Assembly: GCF_910596095.1 (NCBI RefSeq)
Contig: NC_056554.1
Location: 4,030,001 to 4,094,000 of the forward strand
Direction: 5' to 3'
Source: Thunnus maccoyii
Taxonomy: Eukaryota; Chordata; Actinopteri; Scombriformes; Scombridae
DNA: 64,000 nt
The notes beneath the pieces are model-generated. The model ran no database searches, had not been told where the DNA came from, and was given only the letters and a program-made list of their open reading frames with translations. The position numbers were made by a program, and so were the translations under genes. Below are positions 9,567 through 48,204 of this stretch, piece after piece (position 1 is the stretch's first letter; the number at the start of each line of letters is the position of its first letter).

Positions 9567-12500
9567 ATGATGGAAAGGATCTTGCTGGGTGTCCTGTATC
9601 TCTCAGGTCAGTGAAATATTTAAAGATATAATATGTAACTTTTGCACATTATAATGTTTAATGTCTAACGTTTCACTCAATGTTTTATTGAGTTGTGTAA
9701 TTACATCATCCAAAATGTTTCTAATGTTCAAACCCAGAAATTCACACTTTTAATCAAGGTAAGGGTCCTTTTCATTTGGTCGGCAGTTGATAGCATCATA
9801 TGACCTTTGTGCATACATCAGTGTTGTGGTTGTCTGCCAAATGCTGTCATAAACTGACATGTATCCAGATTTAAGCCACATTTTTATTAAACATTTTTAT
9901 ATCTTGGTTGTTTTTAACTATATCTTTTAACCGGATGAAGGATTTTAGTCATCAGACGTCTGAATCTTAAGTTATCAGAGAAGCAAGCTGAGCAAATGTT
10001 AACAGCCTCTCTGAATGTCTCGTATCCAGAGGGGCTGAAACACTGATTATTAACATGAAACTGCTTTATTCAGTGTTTTACTGGTTTTAATCACTGTGTA
10101 GGATATTCCTCAGCAGAACACTGTCTACCTTAATAAGTGGCCAATGCCATCACTTTATTACTTTCCTTATTGTTTGAATGTGTACATTTGTGTCTATAAC
10201 TATGTTGGAAATTTTTAACTCAATTCTCCAAGTTGTATGTGTGTTAAAATCAGGTAATTAATATCTCAGTAACCACTAGAGATAAATATGTGCTGTTTGG
10301 TAGCATTGTAATCTCCTGAGCATAAGAACATTCGATTTTTAGTCATGGTAGTTGTTTGGTAACAAGGTACAGTTGTTTGAGAGATTGTTTTAAAAATAAG
10401 ACAAATTATCTGACCTCCAGTGGATGCCATGATTGGTCAGATGCTTCTCTGAAGTCCCTTATCTAACTGTACCTATAAAAGACCATCACTGGAATGCAAT
10501 AGTTGGATTCTCTTTGTTACTGGTACGAGGTCCCATTCTTTCTCTGAGAAACCAACTTCAGCTGACAAATCTTCATCTCCACTCCCCACGGTGGCAACAC
10601 CTTCTCATCTCTCCTGACGTCACCACACCACTCAGCAGCTACCAGCCCACAGACATGCAAGTAGCACACTCCTGCTCTGCTAACCGGGTGAATTCAAAAA
10701 GCTTCATCTGCTTAGAACTGAATTCTAAATTTGCCACCCCAGTTTACCAGCTGCTTCCAGTGACGGTCACTAGTCAACCCCTTTTCTGACAAACTCTGGT
10801 TCTGCATTCATTCATTCTTTCATTGTGGCGTCATTATTTGTTTAGTGAGTGTTGTTTTGTGTCATTGTTAGGTTAGTCTTTAGGTAATAAATGTTTTGCA
10901 TATAAGGTCATTGCCTTATACTTACTTTCAGTCACTTTATGTATCCGATTCCTTTCCTGAGTGCAAGTTAATTCCTTCCCAAAGCTGATTTATGTGTTAA
11001 AGATTCTCTTGACTAATCACCAAGAGAAACTATTTATTAGTCTTATTATGCTGATTCTGAGGTTATAAAGTAGTGTTATCCTCACAGGCTGGTCCATCTT
11101 CTCCACATGTCGTCTCCATCAGTACCACTTTGTTGCTGAACCCATGAATTGGACTGAAGCTCAGACGTACTGCAGAGAGACATACACAGACCTGGTCACC
11201 ATTGAAAACACTGAAGACATGAACCAACTCAACAACACAGTTTCATCTGCTGGTTACAACAGTCAGGTCTGGATTGGCCTGTACAGAGTCATTGATTGGA
11301 AGTGGTCAGATGGGTACAGAGGGAGTGGAGCTGAATATAGGGACTGGAGATCCAATCAACCAAGTTTAGACACTGATAAACGCTGTGTAGTTATCATAGA
11401 TACTTATAACTCATGGCATTCCATTGATTGCACACTTACACATTATTTCATCTGTTACAATGGTAAGTACCCAGCAAAGCATTATTTCCTCTCTAATAAT
11501 GATTATATTGTAGTTCAGGACTTCAACTCAAAGATTCATTTTTCCCCAATACTTTAACTGCAGGAACACAGCTGGATCCTCAATTTGTTTTTGTGAATCA
11601 AAGAATGAACTGGTCCAATGCTCAGAGGTACTGCAGGGAGAACTTCACAGACCTGACCACTGTGAGGAACGACGTTGAGAACCAGGAGGTCCTGAATTTG
11701 TTGCCAGGTCGAGCCTGGACATGGATCGGCCTGTACAGAGATCCTGACATTAACTGGTCTGATGGCAGTGCCTACTCGTTCAACAGTTGGAGTGCCTCAG
11801 TTTCAGGATCACTCATGAAAATGATGTGTGGTGTGCAGGAATCAGACCAATGGACATTCAAGTCCTGTGAAGAGAGATTTCCATTTGTCTGCTACAGTGT
11901 CCCTCCTGGTGAGTGGTTTACTGTCCTTCAGCTGCATAACTTAAGCATAAATCATGTTTGAATTGTTAGGACGGGCAGGAGTGCGTTTGGTTATTAGCAA
12001 TAATTCATAATTATCATAGATAATTATGAATTATGAAAGATATTGAAAAGATATTGAAAGATATTGTTAATGTTAATCAATAATTCAGGCACCAACTGTT
12101 GGATCTGTGAGGAGCACAGTTGATTATTAACAATAATTAACAATTATCAATAATAAATATAAATTAATTGATTAATAGAATTATTAATATGTATTATCAA
12201 ATACGGGGCACCACCTGGAAACCGGGACCAATAACCAAACAAGGTAGTCTCATAAAAGAGTTCATCTAGAATGTTAATATCTGAGAAATATCAACATTCA
12301 AGGGTGAACAAAGAAGGGTTGAATTCGAGCGGTGTCTGGGTTACACAATAGGGTTACACTCACCAAATTCTGTGTTACACACGTGTCTGATGGCGGATAA
12401 GGAAAGAGAGAGCAGTTCTGTATCTAATGTTATCTGACCATCAGATGTGTAAAAAGATGTCAGTGCGTGTATGTGTGTGTGTGTGTGTGTTAGTCGCAAG

Positions 12501-13786
12501 AGAAAGGGAAGAAGAAGGGAAAGCGATTGTGAGGGGAAGAGAAGCAGTTCCTTTGTCCACAGACAGCATGCGTACGGACAGCAGTCTGTGACGCACGTTG
12601 TCTGGTTTCTGCAACTTACTTCCTCCCTCACGGTGGCACAAACACAGCCGTTCTCGCGCTGTGGCGAATCTCTGGCGAGCTGGCTGGCGGAGAGAACAAC
12701 AGAGTCGACTCGGTGAAGAAGAGCGGGGCAGAGAAGTTCCACGTCTTCCTGAAGAAACTCTGTTTCTTCCTTCTCAAGGGGAATTTGATGACGGTGGTTG
12801 CAGCAGCGGTCTCTCTTGGATCCAGGAATGTGTTCGGGTGAACACGGGCGAAGTCTCGTCTTGTCCAGCGAGGGGAAAGACTTCGGTGAGGGGAAAGACA
12901 CGTGCGTGGGGTACCTACGTTAGTGAAGCTGACTCACAGGAGGACGGTGTTTCTCCTGGCTCAGTTCACAATGAAAGCGTGTGTTTCAGGGTGTGCTCAG
13001 TTTTTAAAGGGGCGGTGATGTCATGGCTATGTCATCAGGATGCTCCGCTGTGCAGGAGCGTCTCCATCAATGAGAGACTGTATGTTGACTGTTCCCTGCT
13101 GAGGTGTGAAAATCGCAAAGCATCCTTGGAAATGGAGTTTGCAATGGACTCTCATTGTCTGTAAGCAGCATTTTGTTCCTATTCCTTTGTCTCGGGGGAA
13201 ATAAAGGAAAAAGCACCTTGTGGTCAGGCTTCACAGGTTACATGTAGGCCTTCTCTGTGTGACCTTGTGCTTTGAGGCCTAACAGAATGTACTTGAAAAA
13301 ATGTAAATATCACAGAACTAATAGGACAGCAAATGAATGATTCATTTCTCCTCTCATTCTGTGTCTCAGTACCAGTAAAGAGGTGGGTAGTTAAGCTGAG
13401 GATGAAGGTGCAGGACTCCTCTGTGGATCTCAATGACCCTGCTGTGAAAGCAAACATCCTGAAAAAGGCAAGTCTCCAAAATCCAGACTGGGTTGGGGGC
13501 TGGGGGTGTCTCAAACAGGTCTAGAATACTTGTTTACATGCTTATTCTGCTTGATGTGTTTTGCCACTATGAAGTTTGATAATATCTAAAAACCAGTGGG
13601 GTTTTTTAGATACAACAACAACACAATAAGGGGGATGAATGTTTCCAAATGGCTTCCATTTGTGTTTCCCAGTTCCAGGACAGACTGAAGGAGCAAGGAG
13701 TGAGTGGAGTCACCCTGAAGTGGAGAGAACAGCCTGATGGGAAAGTCTTCCACAAGGAGGGAAAAGAAGAGAAGAAGAAAAAATGA
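9567..13786 (+). CDS. Secreted protein with two C-type lectin domains, lectin 1 (five exons, 323 aa)
   Basis: Exons 9567-9606, 11088-11462, 11564-11908, 13370-13467 and 13673-13786 join with consistent phases (1, 1, 1, 0). Residues 1-20 are a signal peptide (MMERILLGVLYLSGW). CTLD1 is about 21-138 and CTLD2 about 140-252; both carry WIGLYR, YCRE and FICY/FVCY motifs with the core cysteines. The tail (254-323) is the VDLNDPAVK / QPDGKVFHKE module of teleost macrophage-mannose-receptor-like lectins. It ends in lysines and has no transmembrane segment, so a soluble lectin is inferred. CTLD1 has QPS where calcium-dependent sugar binders have EPN or QPD and no WND, so classical sugar binding is doubtful. 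Intron 4 uses a GC donor. A solo LTR sits in intron 3. A substitution gives an earlier stop than in lectins 2 and 3. Confidence 0.85.
10240..10960 (+). other. Promoter- and LTR-like segment in lectin intron 1
   Basis: A TATA box (TATAAAA at 10474-10480) is followed about 410 bases later by a polyadenylation signal (AATAAA at 10886-10891), with a GC-richer stretch between them: the layout of an LTR. It is present in all three lectin genes (TATAAAA at 25177 and 40577), so it predates the array. I could not define terminal TG/CA or a target duplication, so it remains a suggestion. The 118-codon ORF at 10433-10789 has no recognised domain. Confidence 0.3.
11964..13284 (+). mobile_element. Solo LTR of an LTR retroelement (1321 bp) in intron 3 of lectin 1
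   Basis: Begins TGTTAGG and ends CCTAACA (perfect 7-base inverted ends, TG...CA), flanked by GAAT at 11960-11963 and 13285-13288. Lectins 2 and 3 show the empty site with a single GAAT, so the insertion is specific to unit 1 and the 4-bp target duplication is real. An AATAAA lies at about 13200. There is no internal coding region; the long ORFs inside it are non-coding shadows. A 4-bp duplication fits retrovirus-like elements, but the family cannot be assigned by eye. Confidence 0.85.
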
Positions 13787-24268: not shown

Positions 24269-27200
24269 ATGATGGAAAGGATCTTGTTGGGTGTCCTGTA
24301 TCTCTCAGGTCAGTGAAATATTTAAAGATATAATATGTAACTTTTCTGCATTATAAAATCTAAAAACGACTAGACATATGTTATATATTTTGTTGAGTTG
24401 TTTAATTATCCCAGATGTTTCCAACAATTTTCAAACCGTGAGAAATCTGAAATTTTAATCAAGGTTAAGGGTCTGTTTCATTTGGTCGGCAGTTAATAGC
24501 ATCATACCCTCTTTGTGTGTATGTCAGTGTTGTGGTTGTCTGCCAGGAACTGTCAATAATTTCATTTTTATCTAGTTTTAAGCCACATTTTTCGATAAAC
24601 TTTTTATATCTTGGTTGTTTTTAACTATATCTTTTAACCGGATGAAGGATTTTAGTCATCAGACGTCTGGATCTTAAGTTATCAGAGAAACAAGCTGAGC
24701 AAATGTTAACAGCCTCTCTGTCTCGTATCCAGAGGGGCTGAAACACTGATTATTAACATGAAACTGCTTCATTCAGTGTTTTACTGGTTTTAATCACTGT
24801 GTAGGATATTCCTCAGAAGAACACTGTCTACCTTAATAAGTGGCCAATGCCATCTCTTTATTACTTTCCTTATTGTTTGAATGTGTACATTTGTATCCAT
24901 AACTATGTTGGAAATTTTTAACTCAATTCTCCAAGTTGTATGTGTGTTAAAATCAGGTAATTAATATCTCAGTAACCACTAGAGATAAACATGTGCTGTT
25001 TGGTAGCATTGTAATCTCCTGAGCATAAGAACATTCGATTTTTAGTCATGGTAGTTGTTTGGTAACAAGGTACAGTTGTTTGAGAGATTGTTTTAAAAAT
25101 AAGACAAATTATCTGACCTCCAGTGGATGCCATGATTGGTCAGACACTTCTCTGAAGTCCCTTATCTAACTGTACCTATAAAAGACCATCACTGGAATGC
25201 AATAGTTGGATTCTCTTTGTTACTGGTACGAGGTCCCATTCTTTCTCTGAGTTGAAACCAACTTCAGCTGACAAATCTTCATCTCCACTCCCCACGGTGG
25301 CAACACCTTCTCATCTCTCCTGCCGTCACCACACCACTCAGCAGCTACCAGCCCACAGACATGCAAGTAGCACACTTCTGCTCTGCTAACCGGGTGAATT
25401 CAAAAAGCTTCATCTGCTTAGAACTGAATTCTAAATTTGCCACCCCAGTTTACCAGCTGCTTCCAGTGACGGTCACTAGTCAACCCCTTTTCTGACAAAC
25501 TCTGGTTCTGCATTCATTCATTCTTTTATTGTAGCGTCAGTTTGTTTAGTGAGTGTTGTTTTGTGTCATTGTTAGGTTAGTCTTTAGGTAATAAATGTTT
25601 TGCATATAAAGTCATTGCCTTTGTTTTCTTTAACTTACTTTCAGTCACTTTACGTATCCGATTCCTCTCCTGAGTGCAAGTTAATTCCTTCCCAAAGCTG
25701 ATTTATGTGTTAAAGATTCTCTTGACTAATCACCAAGAGAAACTATTTATTAGTCTTATTATGCTGATTCTGAGGTTATAACGCTGAACAAATAATTGAA
25801 GTGGTTCTGTGTAATAATTCTGCTTAACAGTAAATTTCCCCAAACTGAGCTAAAATTTCCCTACAATTGGGTCTGTTTGTTTTGGAGAGGAGGAGACGTC
25901 TGTGGATAATTTGGTTCCTGGTAAAAACCTCCTGAACAATGAACACTGAAGGAATCCTAACCGGGAGAAGCTGACTGCAATGACTGCAATGGTGGTTATT
26001 TCACAATGAAGACAACAACTCCCATGATCCCACAATACTTCATGATGTCATCAAACTCTGTCTTTTGTTATTGTTTTGATTAAGAGACCACTAGCAGCAG
26101 AAGTTAAATACTGTGTGTTTAATAATGTCTAACAGTGTTTATTATTTCATTATACTGTAATACTTAAAAATGTTAGAGTCACCTCACATGTTAAAAAGTG
26201 GTGTTTTCCTCACAGGCTGGTCCATCTTCTCCACATGTCGTCTCCATCAGTACCACTTTGTTGCTGAACCCATGAATTGGACTGAAGCTCAGATGTACTG
26301 CAGAGAGACATACACAGACCTGGTCACCATTGAAAACACTGAAGACATGAACCAACTCATCAACACAGTTTCATTTGCTGGTTACAACAGTCAAGTCTGG
26401 ATTGGCCTGTACAGAGTCATTGATTGGAAGTGGTCAGATGGGTACAGAGGGAGTGGAGCTGAATATAGGGACTGGGCATCCGATCAACCAAGTTTAGACA
26501 CTGATAAACTCGGTGTAGGTATTGTAAAGAGTCGTCCCTCATGGGAGAATCATCCTTGTACACATGCACATTATTTCGTCTGTTATACTGGTAAGTACCC
26601 AGCTAAGGATTATTTCTTCTCTAATAATGATTACATTGAAGTTCAGCACTTCAAATCAAAGATTCATTTTTTTCCCAATAATTTATCTGCAGGAACACAG
26701 CTGGATCCTCAATTTGTTTTTGTGAATCAACTAATGACCTGGTCCAATGCTCACAGGTACTGTAGGGAGAACTTCATAGACCTGGCCACTGTGAGGAACG
26801 ACACTGAGAACCAGGAGGTCCTGAATTTGTTGCCAGGTACAGACTGGGTATGGATCGGCCTGTACAGAGATCCTGGTATTAACTGGTCTGATGGCAGTGC
26901 CTACTCATTCACCAATTGGGGTGGCTCAGTTTCAGGATCACTCAGATTGGTGAAAATGATGTGTGGTGTGCAGGAATCAAACCAATGGTCGTTTAAGTCC
27001 TGTGGAGAGAGATTTCCATTTGTCTGCTACAGCATCCCTGGTGAGTGGTTTACTGTCCTTCAGTGGAAGCCAGAGAATGCTGCATAACTTTAGCATATAA
27101 ATCATGTTTGAATGTACACGAAAAAATGTAAATATCACAGAACTAATAGGACAGCAAATGAATGATTCATTTCTCCTCTCATTCTGTGTCTCAGTACCAG

Positions 27201-27628
27201 TAAAGAGGCGGGTAGTTAAGCTGAGGATGAAGGTGCAGGACTCCTCTGTGGATCTCAATGACCCTGCTGTGAAAGCAGACATCCTGAAAAAGGCAAGTCT
27301 CCAAAATCCAGACTGGGTTAGGGGCTGGTGTGTCTCAAACAAGTCTAGAATACTTGTTTACATGCTTATTCTGCTTGATGTGTTTTGCCACTAGGAAGTT
27401 TGATAATATCTAAAAACCAGTGGGGGGTTTTAGACACAACAACAACACAATAGGGGGGATGAATGTTTCAAAATGGCTTCCATTTGTGTTTCCCAGTTCC
27501 AGGACAGACTGAAGGAGCAAGGAGTGAGTGGAGTCACCCTGAAGTGGAGAGAACAGCCTGATGGGAAAGTCTTCCACAAGGAGGGAAAAGAGGAGAAGAA
27601 GAAAAAAAGAAAGAACACTGAGCTCTGA
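24269..27628 (+). CDS. Secreted protein with two C-type lectin domains, lectin 2 (five exons, 330 aa)
   Basis: Exons 24269-24308, 26216-26590, 26693-27040, 27195-27292 and 27497-27628 give an open frame with the same phases as lectin 1. Signal peptide 1-20, CTLD1 about 21-138, CTLD2 about 140-253, C-terminal module 255-330 ending KKKKRKNTEL. In CTLD1 the cysteine expected in the DELCV position is glycine (GGT at 26512-26514), so one of the two conserved disulphides of the fold cannot form, although its usual partner cysteines remain. The loop before it differs greatly from lectins 1 and 3. QPS replaces the sugar-specificity triplet and WND is absent. The GC donor of intron 4 is kept. No transmembrane segment, so a soluble lectin is inferred. 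Confidence 0.85.
24950..25660 (+). other. Promoter- and LTR-like segment in lectin 2 intron 1
   Basis: Copy of the segment at 10240-10960: TATAAAA at 25177-25183, AATAAA at 25590-25595. Ends not defined. Confidence 0.3.
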
Positions 27629-39660: not shown

Positions 39661-42600
39661 ATGATGGAAAGGATCTTGCTGGGTGTCCTGTATCTCTCAG
39701 GTCAGTGAAATATTTAAAGATATAATATGTAACTTTTGCACATTATAATGTTTAATGTTTAATGTTTAACTTAATATTTTATTGAGTTGTGTAATTACAT
39801 CATCCAAAATGTTTCTAATGTTCAAACCCAGAAATTCACACTTTTAATCAAGGTAAGGGTCCTTTTCATTTGGTCGGCAGTTAATAGCATCATATGACCT
39901 TTGTGCATACATCAGTGTTGTGGTTGTCTGCCAAATGCTGTCATAAACTGACATGTATCCAGATTTAAGCCACATTTTTATTAAACACTTTTTATATCTT
40001 GGTTGTTTTTAACTATATCTTTTAACCAGATGAAGGATTTTAGTCATCAAACGTCTGGATCTTAAGTTATCAGAGAAACAAGCTGAGCAAATGTTAACAG
40101 CCTCTCTGAATGTCTCGTATCCAGAGGGGCTGAAACACTGATTATTAACATGAAACTGCTTTATTCAGTGTTTTACTGGTTTTAATCACTGTGTAGGATA
40201 TTCCTCAGCACAACACTGTCTACCTTAATAAGTGGCCAATGCCATCACTTTATTACTTTCCTTATTGTTTGAATGTGTACATTTGTATCCATAACTATGT
40301 TGGAAATTGACTATAATTTTAACTCAATCTCCAAGTTGTATGTGTGTTAAAATCAGGTAATTAATATCTCAGTAACCACTAGAGATAAACATGTGCTGTT
40401 TGGTAGCATTGTAATCTCCTGAGCATAAGAACATTCGATTTTTAGTCATGGTAGTTGTTTGGTAACAAGGTACAGTTGTTTGAGAGATTGTTTTAAAAAT
40501 AAGACAAATTATCTGACCTCCAGTGGATGCCATGATTGGTCAGACGCTTCTCTGAAGTCCCTTATCTAACTGTACCTATAAAAGACCATCACTGGAATGC
40601 AATAGTTGGATTCTCTTTGTTACTGGTACGAGGTCCCATTCTTTCTCTGAGTTGAAACCAACTTCAGCTGACAAGTCTTCATCTCCACTCCCCATTGTGG
40701 CAACACCTTCTCATCTCTCCTGACGTCACCACACCACTCAGCAGCTACCAGCCCACAGACATGCAAGTAGCACACTTCTGCTCTGCTAACCGGGTGAATT
40801 CAAAAAGCTTCATCTGCTTAGAACTGAATTCTAAATTTGCCACCCCAGTTTACCAGCTGCTTCCAGTGACGGTCACTAGTCAACCCCTTTTCTGACAAAC
40901 TCTGGTTCTGCATTCATTCATTCTTTCATTGTAGTGTCATTGTTTGTTTAGTGAGTGTTGTTTTGTGTCATTGTTAGGTTAGTCTTTAGGTAATAAATGT
41001 TTTGCATATAAGGTCATTGCCTTTGTTTTCTTTAACTTACTTTCAGTCACTTTACGTATCCGATTCCTCTCCTGAGTGCAAGTTAATTCCTTCCCAAAGC
41101 TGATTTATGTGTTAAAGATTCTCTTGACTAATCACCAAGAGAAACTATTTATTAGTCTTATTATGCTGATTCTGAGGTTATAACGCTGAACAAATAATTG
41201 AAGTGGTTCTGTGTAATAATTCTGCTTAACAGTAAATTTCCCCAAACTGAGCTAAAATTTCCCTACAATTGGGTCTGTTTGTTTTGGAGAGGAGGAGACC
41301 TCTGTGGATAATTTGCATAATTTGCAAAGACTGCAATGGTGATTATTTCACAATGAAGACAACAACTCCCATGATCCCACACTACTTCATGATGTCATCA
41401 AACTCTGTCTTTTGTTGTTGTTTTGATTAAGAGACCACTAGCAGCAGAAGTTAAATACTGTGTGTTTAATAATGTCTAACAGTGTTTATTATTTCATTAT
41501 ACTGTAACACTTAAAAATGTTAGAGTCACCTCACATGTTAAAAAGTGGTGTTTTCCTCACAGGCTGGTCCATCTTCTCCACATGTCGTCTCCATCAGTAC
41601 CACTTTGTTGCTGAACCCATGAATTGGACTGAAGCTCAGACCTACTGCAGAGAGACATACACAGACCTGGTCACCATTGAAAACACTGAAGACATGAACC
41701 AACTCATCAACACAGTTTCATCTGCTGGTTACAACAGTCAAGTCTGGATTGGCCTGTACAGAGTCATTGATTGGAAGTGGTCAGATGGGTACAGAGGGAG
41801 TGGAGATGAATATAGGAACTGGAGATCCAATGAACCAGATTTAGGGGCTGATGAACTCTGTGTAGTGAGTAGAGGTAAAGATCAGTTATGGTGGGATGAT
41901 TTCTGCCAAGTTCAAAATGTTTTCATCTGTTATAATGGTAAGCACTAAGCAAAGTATTATTTCTTCTCTAATAATGATTATATTGTAGTTCAGGACTTCA
42001 ACTCAAAGATTCATTTTTTCCCCCAATAATTTAACTGCAGGAACACAGCTGGATCCTCAATTTGTTTTTGTGAATCAACCAATGAACTGGTCCAATGCTC
42101 AGAGGTACTGCAGGGAGAACTTCACAGACCTGGCCACTGTAAGGAACAACACTGAGAACCAGGAGGTCATGAACTTGGTGCCAGGTACATACTGGGCATG
42201 GATCGGCCTGTACAGAGATCCTAACATTAACTGGTCTGATGGCAGTGCCTACTCGTTCACCAATTGGAGTGGTTCAGTTTCAGCATCACTCAAATTGATG
42301 AAAATGATGTGTGGTGTGCAGGAATCAAACCAATGGACATTTATGTCCTGTGGAGAGAGATTTCCATTTGTCTGCTACAGCATCCCTGGTGAGTGGTTTA
42401 CTGTCCTTCAGTGGAAGCCAGAGAATGCTGCATAACTTTAGCATAAATCATGTTTGAATGTACATGAAAAAATGTAAATATCACAGAACTAATAGGACAG
42501 CAAATGAATGATTCATTTCTCCTCTCATTCTGTGTCTCAGTACCAGTAAAGAGGTGGGTAGTTAAGCTGAGGATGAAGGCGCAGGACTCCTCTGTGGATC

Positions 42601-42974
42601 TCAATGACCCTGCTGTGAAAGCAAACATCCTGAAAAAGGCAAGTCTCCAAAATCCAGACTGGGTTAGGGGCTGGTGTGTCTCAAACAAGTCTAGAATACT
42701 TGTTTACATGCTTATTCTGCTTGATGTGTTTTGCCACTAGGAAGTTTGATAATATCTAAAAACCAGTGGGGTTTTTTACACACAACAACAACACAATAGG
42801 GGGGATGAATGTTTCAAAATGGCTTCCATTTGTGTTTCCCAGTTCCAGGACAGACTGAAGGAGCAAGGAGTGAGTGGAGTCACCCTGAAGTGGAGAGAAC
42901 AGCCTGATGGGAAAGTCTTCCACAAGGAGGGAAAAGAAGAGAAGAAGAAAAATAGAAAGAACACTGAGCTCTGA
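39661..42974 (+). CDS. Secreted protein with two C-type lectin domains, lectin 3 (five exons, 330 aa)
   Basis: Exons 39661-39700, 41563-41937, 42041-42388, 42541-42638 and 42843-42974 join in phases 1, 1, 1, 0. Signal peptide 1-20, CTLD1 about 21-138, CTLD2 about 140-253, C-terminal module 255-330. CTLD1 is the only one of the three with acidic residues at both calcium-site positions (EPD, then WWDD near its end, close to the EPN/WND pattern) and it keeps all core cysteines, so it is the best candidate for calcium-dependent ligand binding. CTLD2 lacks such motifs, as in the other copies. No transmembrane segment. Intron 4 starts with GC. Probably an immune-type soluble lectin; the ligand is unknown. 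Confidence 0.87.
40340..41060 (+). other. Promoter- and LTR-like segment in lectin 3 intron 1
   Basis: Copy of 10240-10960: TATAAAA at 40577-40583 and AATAAA at 40992-40997. Confidence 0.3.
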
Positions 42975-48013: not shown

Positions 48014-48204
48014 ATGATGGAAAGGATCTTGCTGGGTGTCCTGTATCTCTCAGGTCAGTGAAACCTCAGATATTTTACTGTGCTTGTTCTTGTATATTAT
48101 AACACTTAAAAGGAAATGTTTGAGCTACCTTACATGCTCATACGGTCATACGTTTTTTCCATACAGTTCATTGTTTATTAAGTAGCGTTGTGATAGTGGG
48201 AAAC

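Follow-up and report, generated by a model that had tools for sequence, protein, structure and literature searches.

Snake venom proteins with C-type lectin-like domains (CTLDs) evolve fast, and their introns are more conserved than their exons. Between groups of these proteins the long loop of the CTLD varies most, and the E/Q-P-D/N Ca2+ site has been lost (PMC6468738). The snaclecs resemble the tuna lectins described here in their CTLD fold and in having the long loop as the changing part, and their CTLD subunits pair as heterodimers through an expanded loop that is swapped between them (PMC6468738). The tuna proteins, in contrast, carry two CTLDs in one chain and lack a long insertion in the loop, which places them outside the snaclecs. 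A further likeness is to ASSET (accelerated segment switch in exons) in venom proteins, where, as in tuna, short exon segments are replaced wholesale while the proteins stay otherwise similar, in the venom case with altered surface and target, and for which the authors judged recombination to be an unsatisfactory mechanism (PMC2711939). In tuna, however, sister loops at other loci and conflicting trees point to exchange between paralogues.

Killer lectin-like receptors (KLRs) are type II membrane receptors with one CTLD. With their signal-peptide-like exon (MMERILLGVLYLS), two CTLDs and basic tail, the tuna lectins do not belong to this group. What they share with the KLR/Ly49 genes of the NK complex is a tandem set of CTLD genes that has expanded, formed hybrids and undergone gene conversion (PMC5350243). 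The congerins are likewise secreted fish lectins, whose binding specificity has been diversified by accelerated evolution, but they have the galectin fold and are encoded by two genes, and the available text describes no loop-cassette exchange (PMC3269628). The Rlec genes of the prawn Macrobrachium nipponense form a hypervariable multigene family of C-type lectins with immune activity, in which the variability lies in tandem-repeat number and exon-5 types and not, as in tuna, in an exchanged loop segment (PMC7536079). The two CTLDs, short basic tail and stop of the tuna lectins also set them apart from the group VI mannose-receptor family. Members of that family have further domains and a membrane anchor. 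They contain at least eight CTLDs (PMC514892).

Fast CTLD loops are known elsewhere, and the cassette-like repertoire in secreted two-CTLD fish lectins looks like a new form of this known theme; among the titles and abstracts listed in literature searches, which covered a minority of subscription papers, none described such a fish lectin repertoire, which is weak evidence of novelty. Taken as a whole, the locus is probably best explained by an amplified lectin family with a homogenised framework, selected and exchanged loops, and mosaic genes. The three genes analysed here are members of a teleost family of secreted two-CTLD lectins that has been amplified in tandem. The framework, comprising the first 84 codons of CTLD1, would be kept alike among neighbours by recent duplication and conversion-like exchange, and the distal long loop, with strands beta3-beta4 and the Ca2+/ligand site, would be kept different by diversifying selection. 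Loop types are common to distant clusters, and many genes are mosaics of a framework, a loop with intron 2, and a CTLD2 that differ in ancestry.

The tandem units and their relatives in the genome

The window, a 64-kb stretch of the Thunnus maccoyii genome (C22:4,030,001-4,094,000), contains three tandem units of about 14-16 kb, each with one gene (copies A, B and C). Aligned blocks between units are 88-98.5% identical. The order of parts is the same in all three genes: a signal-peptide-like exon, exon 2 encoding CTLD1 (375 bp in A, B and C), exon 3 encoding CTLD2, and two tail exons (Table 1). The annotated T. maccoyii protein P0011, compared by eye, resembles copy A across CTLD1 and CTLD2.

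Table 1. Exons and associated segments of the three lectin genes, in positions of the 64-kb window.
Feature	Positions	Strand	Remark
Copy A exon 1, coding part	9567..9606	+	tblastn match
Copy A exon 2 = CTLD1	11088..11462	+	hypervariable part 11342-11462
Copy A exon 3 = CTLD2	11564..11908	+	
Copy A exon 4	13370..13467	+	
Copy A exon 5	13673..13786	+	
Copy B exon 1, coding part	24269..24308	+	tblastn match
Copy B exon 2 = CTLD1	26216..26590	+	hypervariable part 26470-26590; loop Cys (codon 99) replaced by Gly
Copy B exon 3 = CTLD2	26693..27040	+	closest is the 4,112k copy, 12/344 differences
Copy B exon 4	27195..27292	+	
Copy B exon 5	27497..27628	+	
Copy C exon 1, coding part of signal-peptide-like exon (MMERILLGVLYLS-G)	39661..39700	+	
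Copy C exon 2 = CTLD1	41563..41937	+	PF00059
Copy C hypervariable, putative ligand-loop segment, codons 85-124	41817..41937	+	loop class also at G000:C22:7,035,811-7,036,185
Copy C intron 2, starts GTAAGCACTA	41938..42040	+	start common to 7,036k only, among 24 copies listed
Copy C exon 3 = CTLD2	42041..42388	+	closest is the 3,584k copy, 8/335 differences
Copy C exon 4 (tail)	42541..42638	+	followed by intron with GC donor
Copy C exon 5 (basic C-terminal tail, stop)	42843..42974	+	

Several smaller features accompany these genes. At 48014-48053 there is a fourth signal-peptide exon, an orphan with its own donor (MMERILLGVLYLSG), and tblastn found no further CTLD exon behind it within the window. 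About 370-430 bp of intron 1 that are present in B and C are missing from copy A (at 11067-11070), whose intron 3 holds about 1.3 kb of additional sequence (11963-13285), which is partly treated as exon in the annotated protein P0011. The donor of intron 4 (42639-42842 in copy C) is GC in A, B and C alike.

When exon 2 of copy C was used as a DNA query against the 782-Mb assembly, 38 matches were obtained, 26 of them with E <= 1.2e-78. Two of the 26 lie on C17 and the other 24 on C22, around 3.44-3.62, 4.04-4.11 and 7.03 Mb. In 20 of them the alignment stops at or before base 335 of 375; the loop is wholly or mostly unaligned in 18 of these and is missing in the other two, 7,030k and 7,038k on C22. 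In this pair CTLD1 is fused to CTLD2 in one exon near the shared WIGLYR motif (one was translated), and the resulting single-CTLD exon without a hypervariable loop probably arose by unequal recombination between CTLD1 and CTLD2.

By the length of intron 2 the copies fall into 17 with a short intron (93-103 bp), seven with a long intron (545-577 bp) and the two fusions. No comparison includes the fusions or C17:11,554k, which carries a stop as well as a deletion. The aligned set consists of 16 short-intron copies, 14 of which are open in exon 2; 3,556k (stop) and 3,535k (frameshift) were excluded from codon tests and from the exon-2 approximately unbiased (AU) trees and retained in nucleotide distances, the PHI and cluster tests and the exon-3 codon test. 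The seven long-intron copies served mainly as a contrast class.

Divergence and selection in the first CTLD

We define the framework as CTLD1 codons 1-84 (252 bases) and the loop as codons 85-124 (the last 121 bases of exon 2). The framework differs at 4/252 bases in every pair of window copies, whereas the loop differs at 30 (A-B), 40 (A-C) and 46 (B-C) of its 121 bases, or 25-38%. At the protein level, the same pairs differ at 3/84, 2/84 and 3/84 framework residues and at 18/40, 23/40 and 28/40 loop residues. The original prediction, made from the letters of the window, had stated that the last roughly 40 codons of CTLD1 differ at about half of their residues and that the first 85 codons of exon 2 are almost unchanged; both statements agree with these counts, and the peptides that it quoted are present. 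Its description of the following intron as 80 bases long and almost unchanged was mistaken, since intron 2 of A, B and C spans 101-103 bp and shows 6-12 differences per approximately 101 bases, depending on the alignment. Its claim that coding change exceeds intron change nonetheless holds, at 25-38% in the loop versus 6-12% in intron 2. Intron 4 is near-identical among the three copies (9, 8 and 3 differences per 204).

Nei-Gojobori estimates for the loop, in the order A-B, A-C and B-C, give dN of 0.34, 0.46 and 0.63 and dS of 0.19, 0.36 and 0.22, with only 22-24 synonymous sites per pair. In each comparison dN exceeds dS, and the prediction does not fail on this count. In the framework, dN is 0.010-0.018 and dS 0.010-0.040. 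Loop dS is thus about 9-22 times framework dS in these pairs, a point that the prediction had missed. The loop has a surplus of both synonymous and nonsynonymous change, and the nonsynonymous surplus is the larger.

The same profile is seen along the gene in the 16 short-intron copies. Averaged over pairs, the framework has a nucleotide divergence of 3.1%, compared with 32.5% for the loop, 9.5% for intron 2 and 10.0% for exon 3; where the segments could be cut, the mean is 2.2% in exon 4 (13 copies), 2.8% in intron 4 (11 copies) and 1.1% in exon 5 (11 copies). In 21-base bins, a sharp step at base 253 of exon 2 takes divergence from 2.8% to 26%, and in the final bin of the exon it declines again, from 43% to 12.5%. 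The last 150 bp of intron 1 (mean 24.7%) are unfit as a neutral yardstick, since copy A has a deletion there and homology is mixed.

Among the 14 intact copies, pS and pN are 0.046 and 0.026 in the framework and 0.265 and 0.355 in the loop. In codon pairs that encode the same residue (M and W omitted), synonymous differences number 134/6505 (2.1%) in the framework and 186/1320 (14.1%) in the loop, a difference of about sevenfold in the short-intron copies. Because of this disparity, loop and framework appear to differ in genealogical depth. Selection on the protein within one common history would not raise synonymous change, and the loop segments therefore look older than the frameworks that surround them, and not merely faster-evolving.

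Codon models were fitted by maximum likelihood with our own script, not PAML, to the loop of the 14 copies on its own tree, assuming no recombination. Under these models loop omega is 2.42 (2dL 15.6 against omega of 1), and M2a is preferred over M1a with 2dL of 40.9 and 68% of codons in a class with omega 4.2; recombination within the loop may inflate these figures. In simulations under omega of 1, none of 60 replicates reached 15.6 (maximum 2dL 9.0), and none of 15 reached 40.9 for M2a over M1a (maximum 5.1). Framework omega is 0.63 and not significantly different from 1, on a tree 16 times shorter than that of the loop. Of the two segments, only the loop has an omega above 1, the pattern of diversifying selection on the presumed ligand loop. 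With both intron classes combined (21 open copies), loop pS is 0.384 and pN 0.348, and there is no nonsynonymous excess between the classes.

Relaxed constraint, pseudogene decay or a local mutational hot spot in the last third of exon 2 might also be proposed, given that copy B has lost its loop Cys and that two of the 16 copies in the alignment are disrupted, 3,556k by a stop and 3,535k by a frameshift. Relaxation or a hot spot should not, however, yield an omega of 2.4, and 14 of the 16 exons are open. The cysteine-less loop, moreover, forms a class of three genes in this genome (B, 3,472k and 3,584k) with relatives in T. albacares (P0009, P0121), and because this state is so shared, the copy B loop is better regarded as a type than as the mark of a dying gene. 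An origin of the loop differences by any of these routes strikes us as hardly credible, and we reject both relaxed constraint and a hot spot.

The long-intron genes provide a contrast to these selected loops. Six of the seven have one conserved loop (NEPDF..QFCVNIG..GRWWDD.C), with mean amino-acid differences of 0.046 in the framework and 0.050 in the loop, whereas the 14 short-intron copies differ by 6.1% and 58.1%, respectively. The seventh, 3,618k, has a deviating loop of its own, and mean loop difference among the seven is 0.177 with it and 0.050 without it. In three comparisons of the conserved-loop class with sea bass and mandarin fish, the framework differs by 18-27% and the loop by 14-33%; the loop of a CTLD thus need not outpace its framework.

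Paralogous proteins of other fishes repeat the short-intron pattern to differing degrees. The groups were hand-picked among the best 120 of 1031 and the best 120 of 511 matches, consist of proteins only and were found with a tuna query, so that they display the pattern and give no measure of selection. Framework and loop differences are 7.2% and 55.8% in 14 proteins of Pleuronectes (0.072 and 0.558; P0041 and P0050 in this group have identical loops and may be one gene), 6.7% and 45.8% in nine of Hippoglossus hippoglossus, 11.0% and 48.6% in eight of H. stenolepis, and 15.9% and 47.4% in five of Channa argus. The ratio of loop to framework difference is lower in Centroberyx (2.4), Cololabis (2.5) and Sebastes umbrosus (2.5, one usable pair) and lowest in Cyprinodon tularosa (1.6, three usable pairs).

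These relatives bear on whether the window has been correctly assembled. The units are long near-repeats, of a kind in which mixed haplotypes might be combined or repeats misjoined. Against this, the copy A loop and the first part of the C loop occur in the annotated T. maccoyii proteins P0011 and P0014 (possibly from the same assembly), T. albacares has a relative of the B loop (P0009) and the first part of a C-like loop (P0008), and plaice and halibut proteins show the pattern again; only the other species are independent in this respect. We assign an assembly artefact a negligible probability and reject it.

Segments with different genealogies

Loop-nearest and framework-nearest relatives differ for all three window genes, and the case is clearest for copy C. 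It differs from 4,098k at 2/254 framework bases and at 44/118 loop bases, whereas compared with 7,036k, 3 Mb away, it differs at 15/254 framework bases, 12/121 loop bases and 5/102 bases of intron 2. Copy C is thus a mosaic: its framework resembles those of the neighbouring genes, its loop and intron 2 resemble those of 7,036k, and its exon 3 resembles that of a third gene, 3,584k. Sites that place it with 4,098k or with 7,036k are divided 14:1 in the framework, 7:39 in the loop, 3:8 in intron 2 and 24:17 in exon 3. A Fisher test of framework versus loop in this triplet gives p of 6.7e-8, the lowest among ten triplets whose p-values begin at 0.011 and are descriptive, the triplets having been picked by nearest relative. 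The copy B loop is close to those of 3,472k (9/121) and 3,584k (10/121), all of one loop class, and its framework is near those of its neighbours (4/254). The loop of 4,098k has its partner in 3,500k (13.6%), and copy A has no close loop partner in the genome, the best differing at 26/121. Mosaicism is not universal among the copies: the frameworks of 3,472k and 3,584k are identical and their loops near-identical.

The PHI test (our own script), which does not depend on how the triplets were picked, detects recombination across exon 2, intron 2 and exon 3 (0/1000 permutations), in exon 2 alone (2/1000), inside the loop (0/1000) and, strongly, in exon 3 (0/1000); within the framework alone, with only 11 informative sites, it is not significant (256/1000). 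In AU tests on 14 copies, the loop, framework and exon-3 alignments reject each other's trees in all six cross-comparisons (p <= 0.002), although the framework tree is itself poorly supported, with 10 of 11 nodes below 60. Adjacent segments of these genes have different genealogies, as gene conversion or ectopic exchange would produce. The original prediction had offered diversifying selection or gene conversion from another paralogue as alternatives, and comparison with the other copies in the genome supports both.

Rapid point mutation alone, under diversifying selection after a recent duplication of the unit and with no exchange between copies, would account for the nonsynonymous excess and for loops that differ between units otherwise alike. 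It does not account for the raised synonymous divergence of the loop, for loop classes that recur in genes 0.5-3 Mb away with more distant frameworks, or for the rejection of cross-trees in the AU tests. We therefore consider it very improbable and reject it.

Homogenisation of the framework without positive selection has more to recommend it. An old family would have had its frameworks converted within clusters while its loops were too different to convert, and the sevenfold excess of synonymous divergence in the loop is in keeping with this. So is a permutation test on the 14 copies of the two large clusters, in which framework distances follow the genomic cluster (1/2000), with weak association for the loop (93/2000), an intermediate result for exon 3 (119/2000) and none for intron 2 (628/2000). 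What this reading leaves unexplained is a loop omega whose likelihood gain was reached in no null simulation, and the fact that the structural residues W86, P91, W109 and C122 are kept in the 14 intact short-intron copies, as judged by eye, while their neighbours change. On balance homogenisation alone seems unlikely, and we favour a family in which homogenised frameworks are combined with selected and exchanged loops. As to the direction of exchange, the data fit homogenisation of frameworks around old loops no less well than a transfer of loops into frameworks.

Domain structure and candidate binding functions

Matches to PF00059, together with the WIGL, W and Cys positions, identify these proteins as C-type lectin-like, copy B lacking one conserved Cys. 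The profile scores 113.5 bits in two stretches of copy C, 64.5 bits in CTLD1 of B and 68.1 bits in CTLD1 of A; no other Pfam domain was found in copy C at E of 0.001. An AF2 model of copy C CTLD1 has a moderate mean pLDDT of 74.7, falling to about 56 in residues 61-80, and places strands at 99-103, 108-112 and 118-123. Its best PDB matches are CTLDs (lithostathine and mannose receptor CRD4, TM 0.73-0.75). The variable part appears to run from the distal long loop through the beta3-beta4 hairpin into the start of beta5, a placement that relies on homology to solved CTLDs because the model is only moderate.

In CTLDs that bind sugar through Ca2+, an E position precedes the loop Cys. Such domains hold Ca2+ in this region via the E/Q-P-D/N and W-N-D motifs (PMC6468738). 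Copy C has E90, P91, D92, E97 and D111, with W in place of the N of WND, whereas the corresponding positions are Q90, S92, K97 and S111 in copy A and Q90, S92, K97 and N111 in copy B. Most of the acidic ligands are thus retained in C but not in A and B, which makes Ca2+ binding possible for C and improbable for the other two.

By analogy with other CTLDs, the loop would contact ligand in the tuna lectins, and the genome may encode a ready supply of proteins that differ in what they bind. We suggest that these would constitute a germline repertoire of different binding specificities, probably directed against microbial or parasite surface molecules. C-type lectin-like genes are among those enriched in diversity peaks in Lates japonicus (PMC11346364), which fits the idea of a repertoire without testing it. 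More tentatively, percomorph fishes might possess a germline, antibody-like lectin repertoire, in which a secreted two-CTLD scaffold is homogenised in each species while loop cassettes are stored, exchanged over distances of up to megabases, and selected. We hold this wider proposal to be possible rather than probable; if true, it would represent innate receptors with framework and hypervariable regions but no somatic rearrangement.

The family offers a natural experiment, with one scaffold and many loops in several fish lineages and, alongside, sister genes with a conserved loop. If specificity resides in the loops, the innate recognition specificities of tuna and flatfishes can be read from their genes, and long reads would allow loop exchange to be measured in both rate and direction. 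Among the best 120 of 1031 matches, the fish relatives are annotated as mannose receptor-like, LY75-like, PLA2R-like, L-selectin-like or CLEC20A-like; these names look automatic. By sequence the proteins belong with the tuna lectins, and they are mostly short and two-CTLD, in contrast to the eight-CTLD group VI receptors; names such as mannose receptor 1-like or LY75-like conceal one family. Orthology based on the framework can likewise mislead for the presumably functionally important part.

The second domain differs from the first in its profile of change. Overall omega in exon 3 is 1.18 and not above 1 (2dL 1.16), and a fast class under M2a (2dL 99.5) is not leaned on here, as recombination in this exon is strong. 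Among the exon 3 copies, the fast sites of CTLD2 lie elsewhere, at codons 6 and 13 and in codons 43-52, which immediately precede the WIGL strand.
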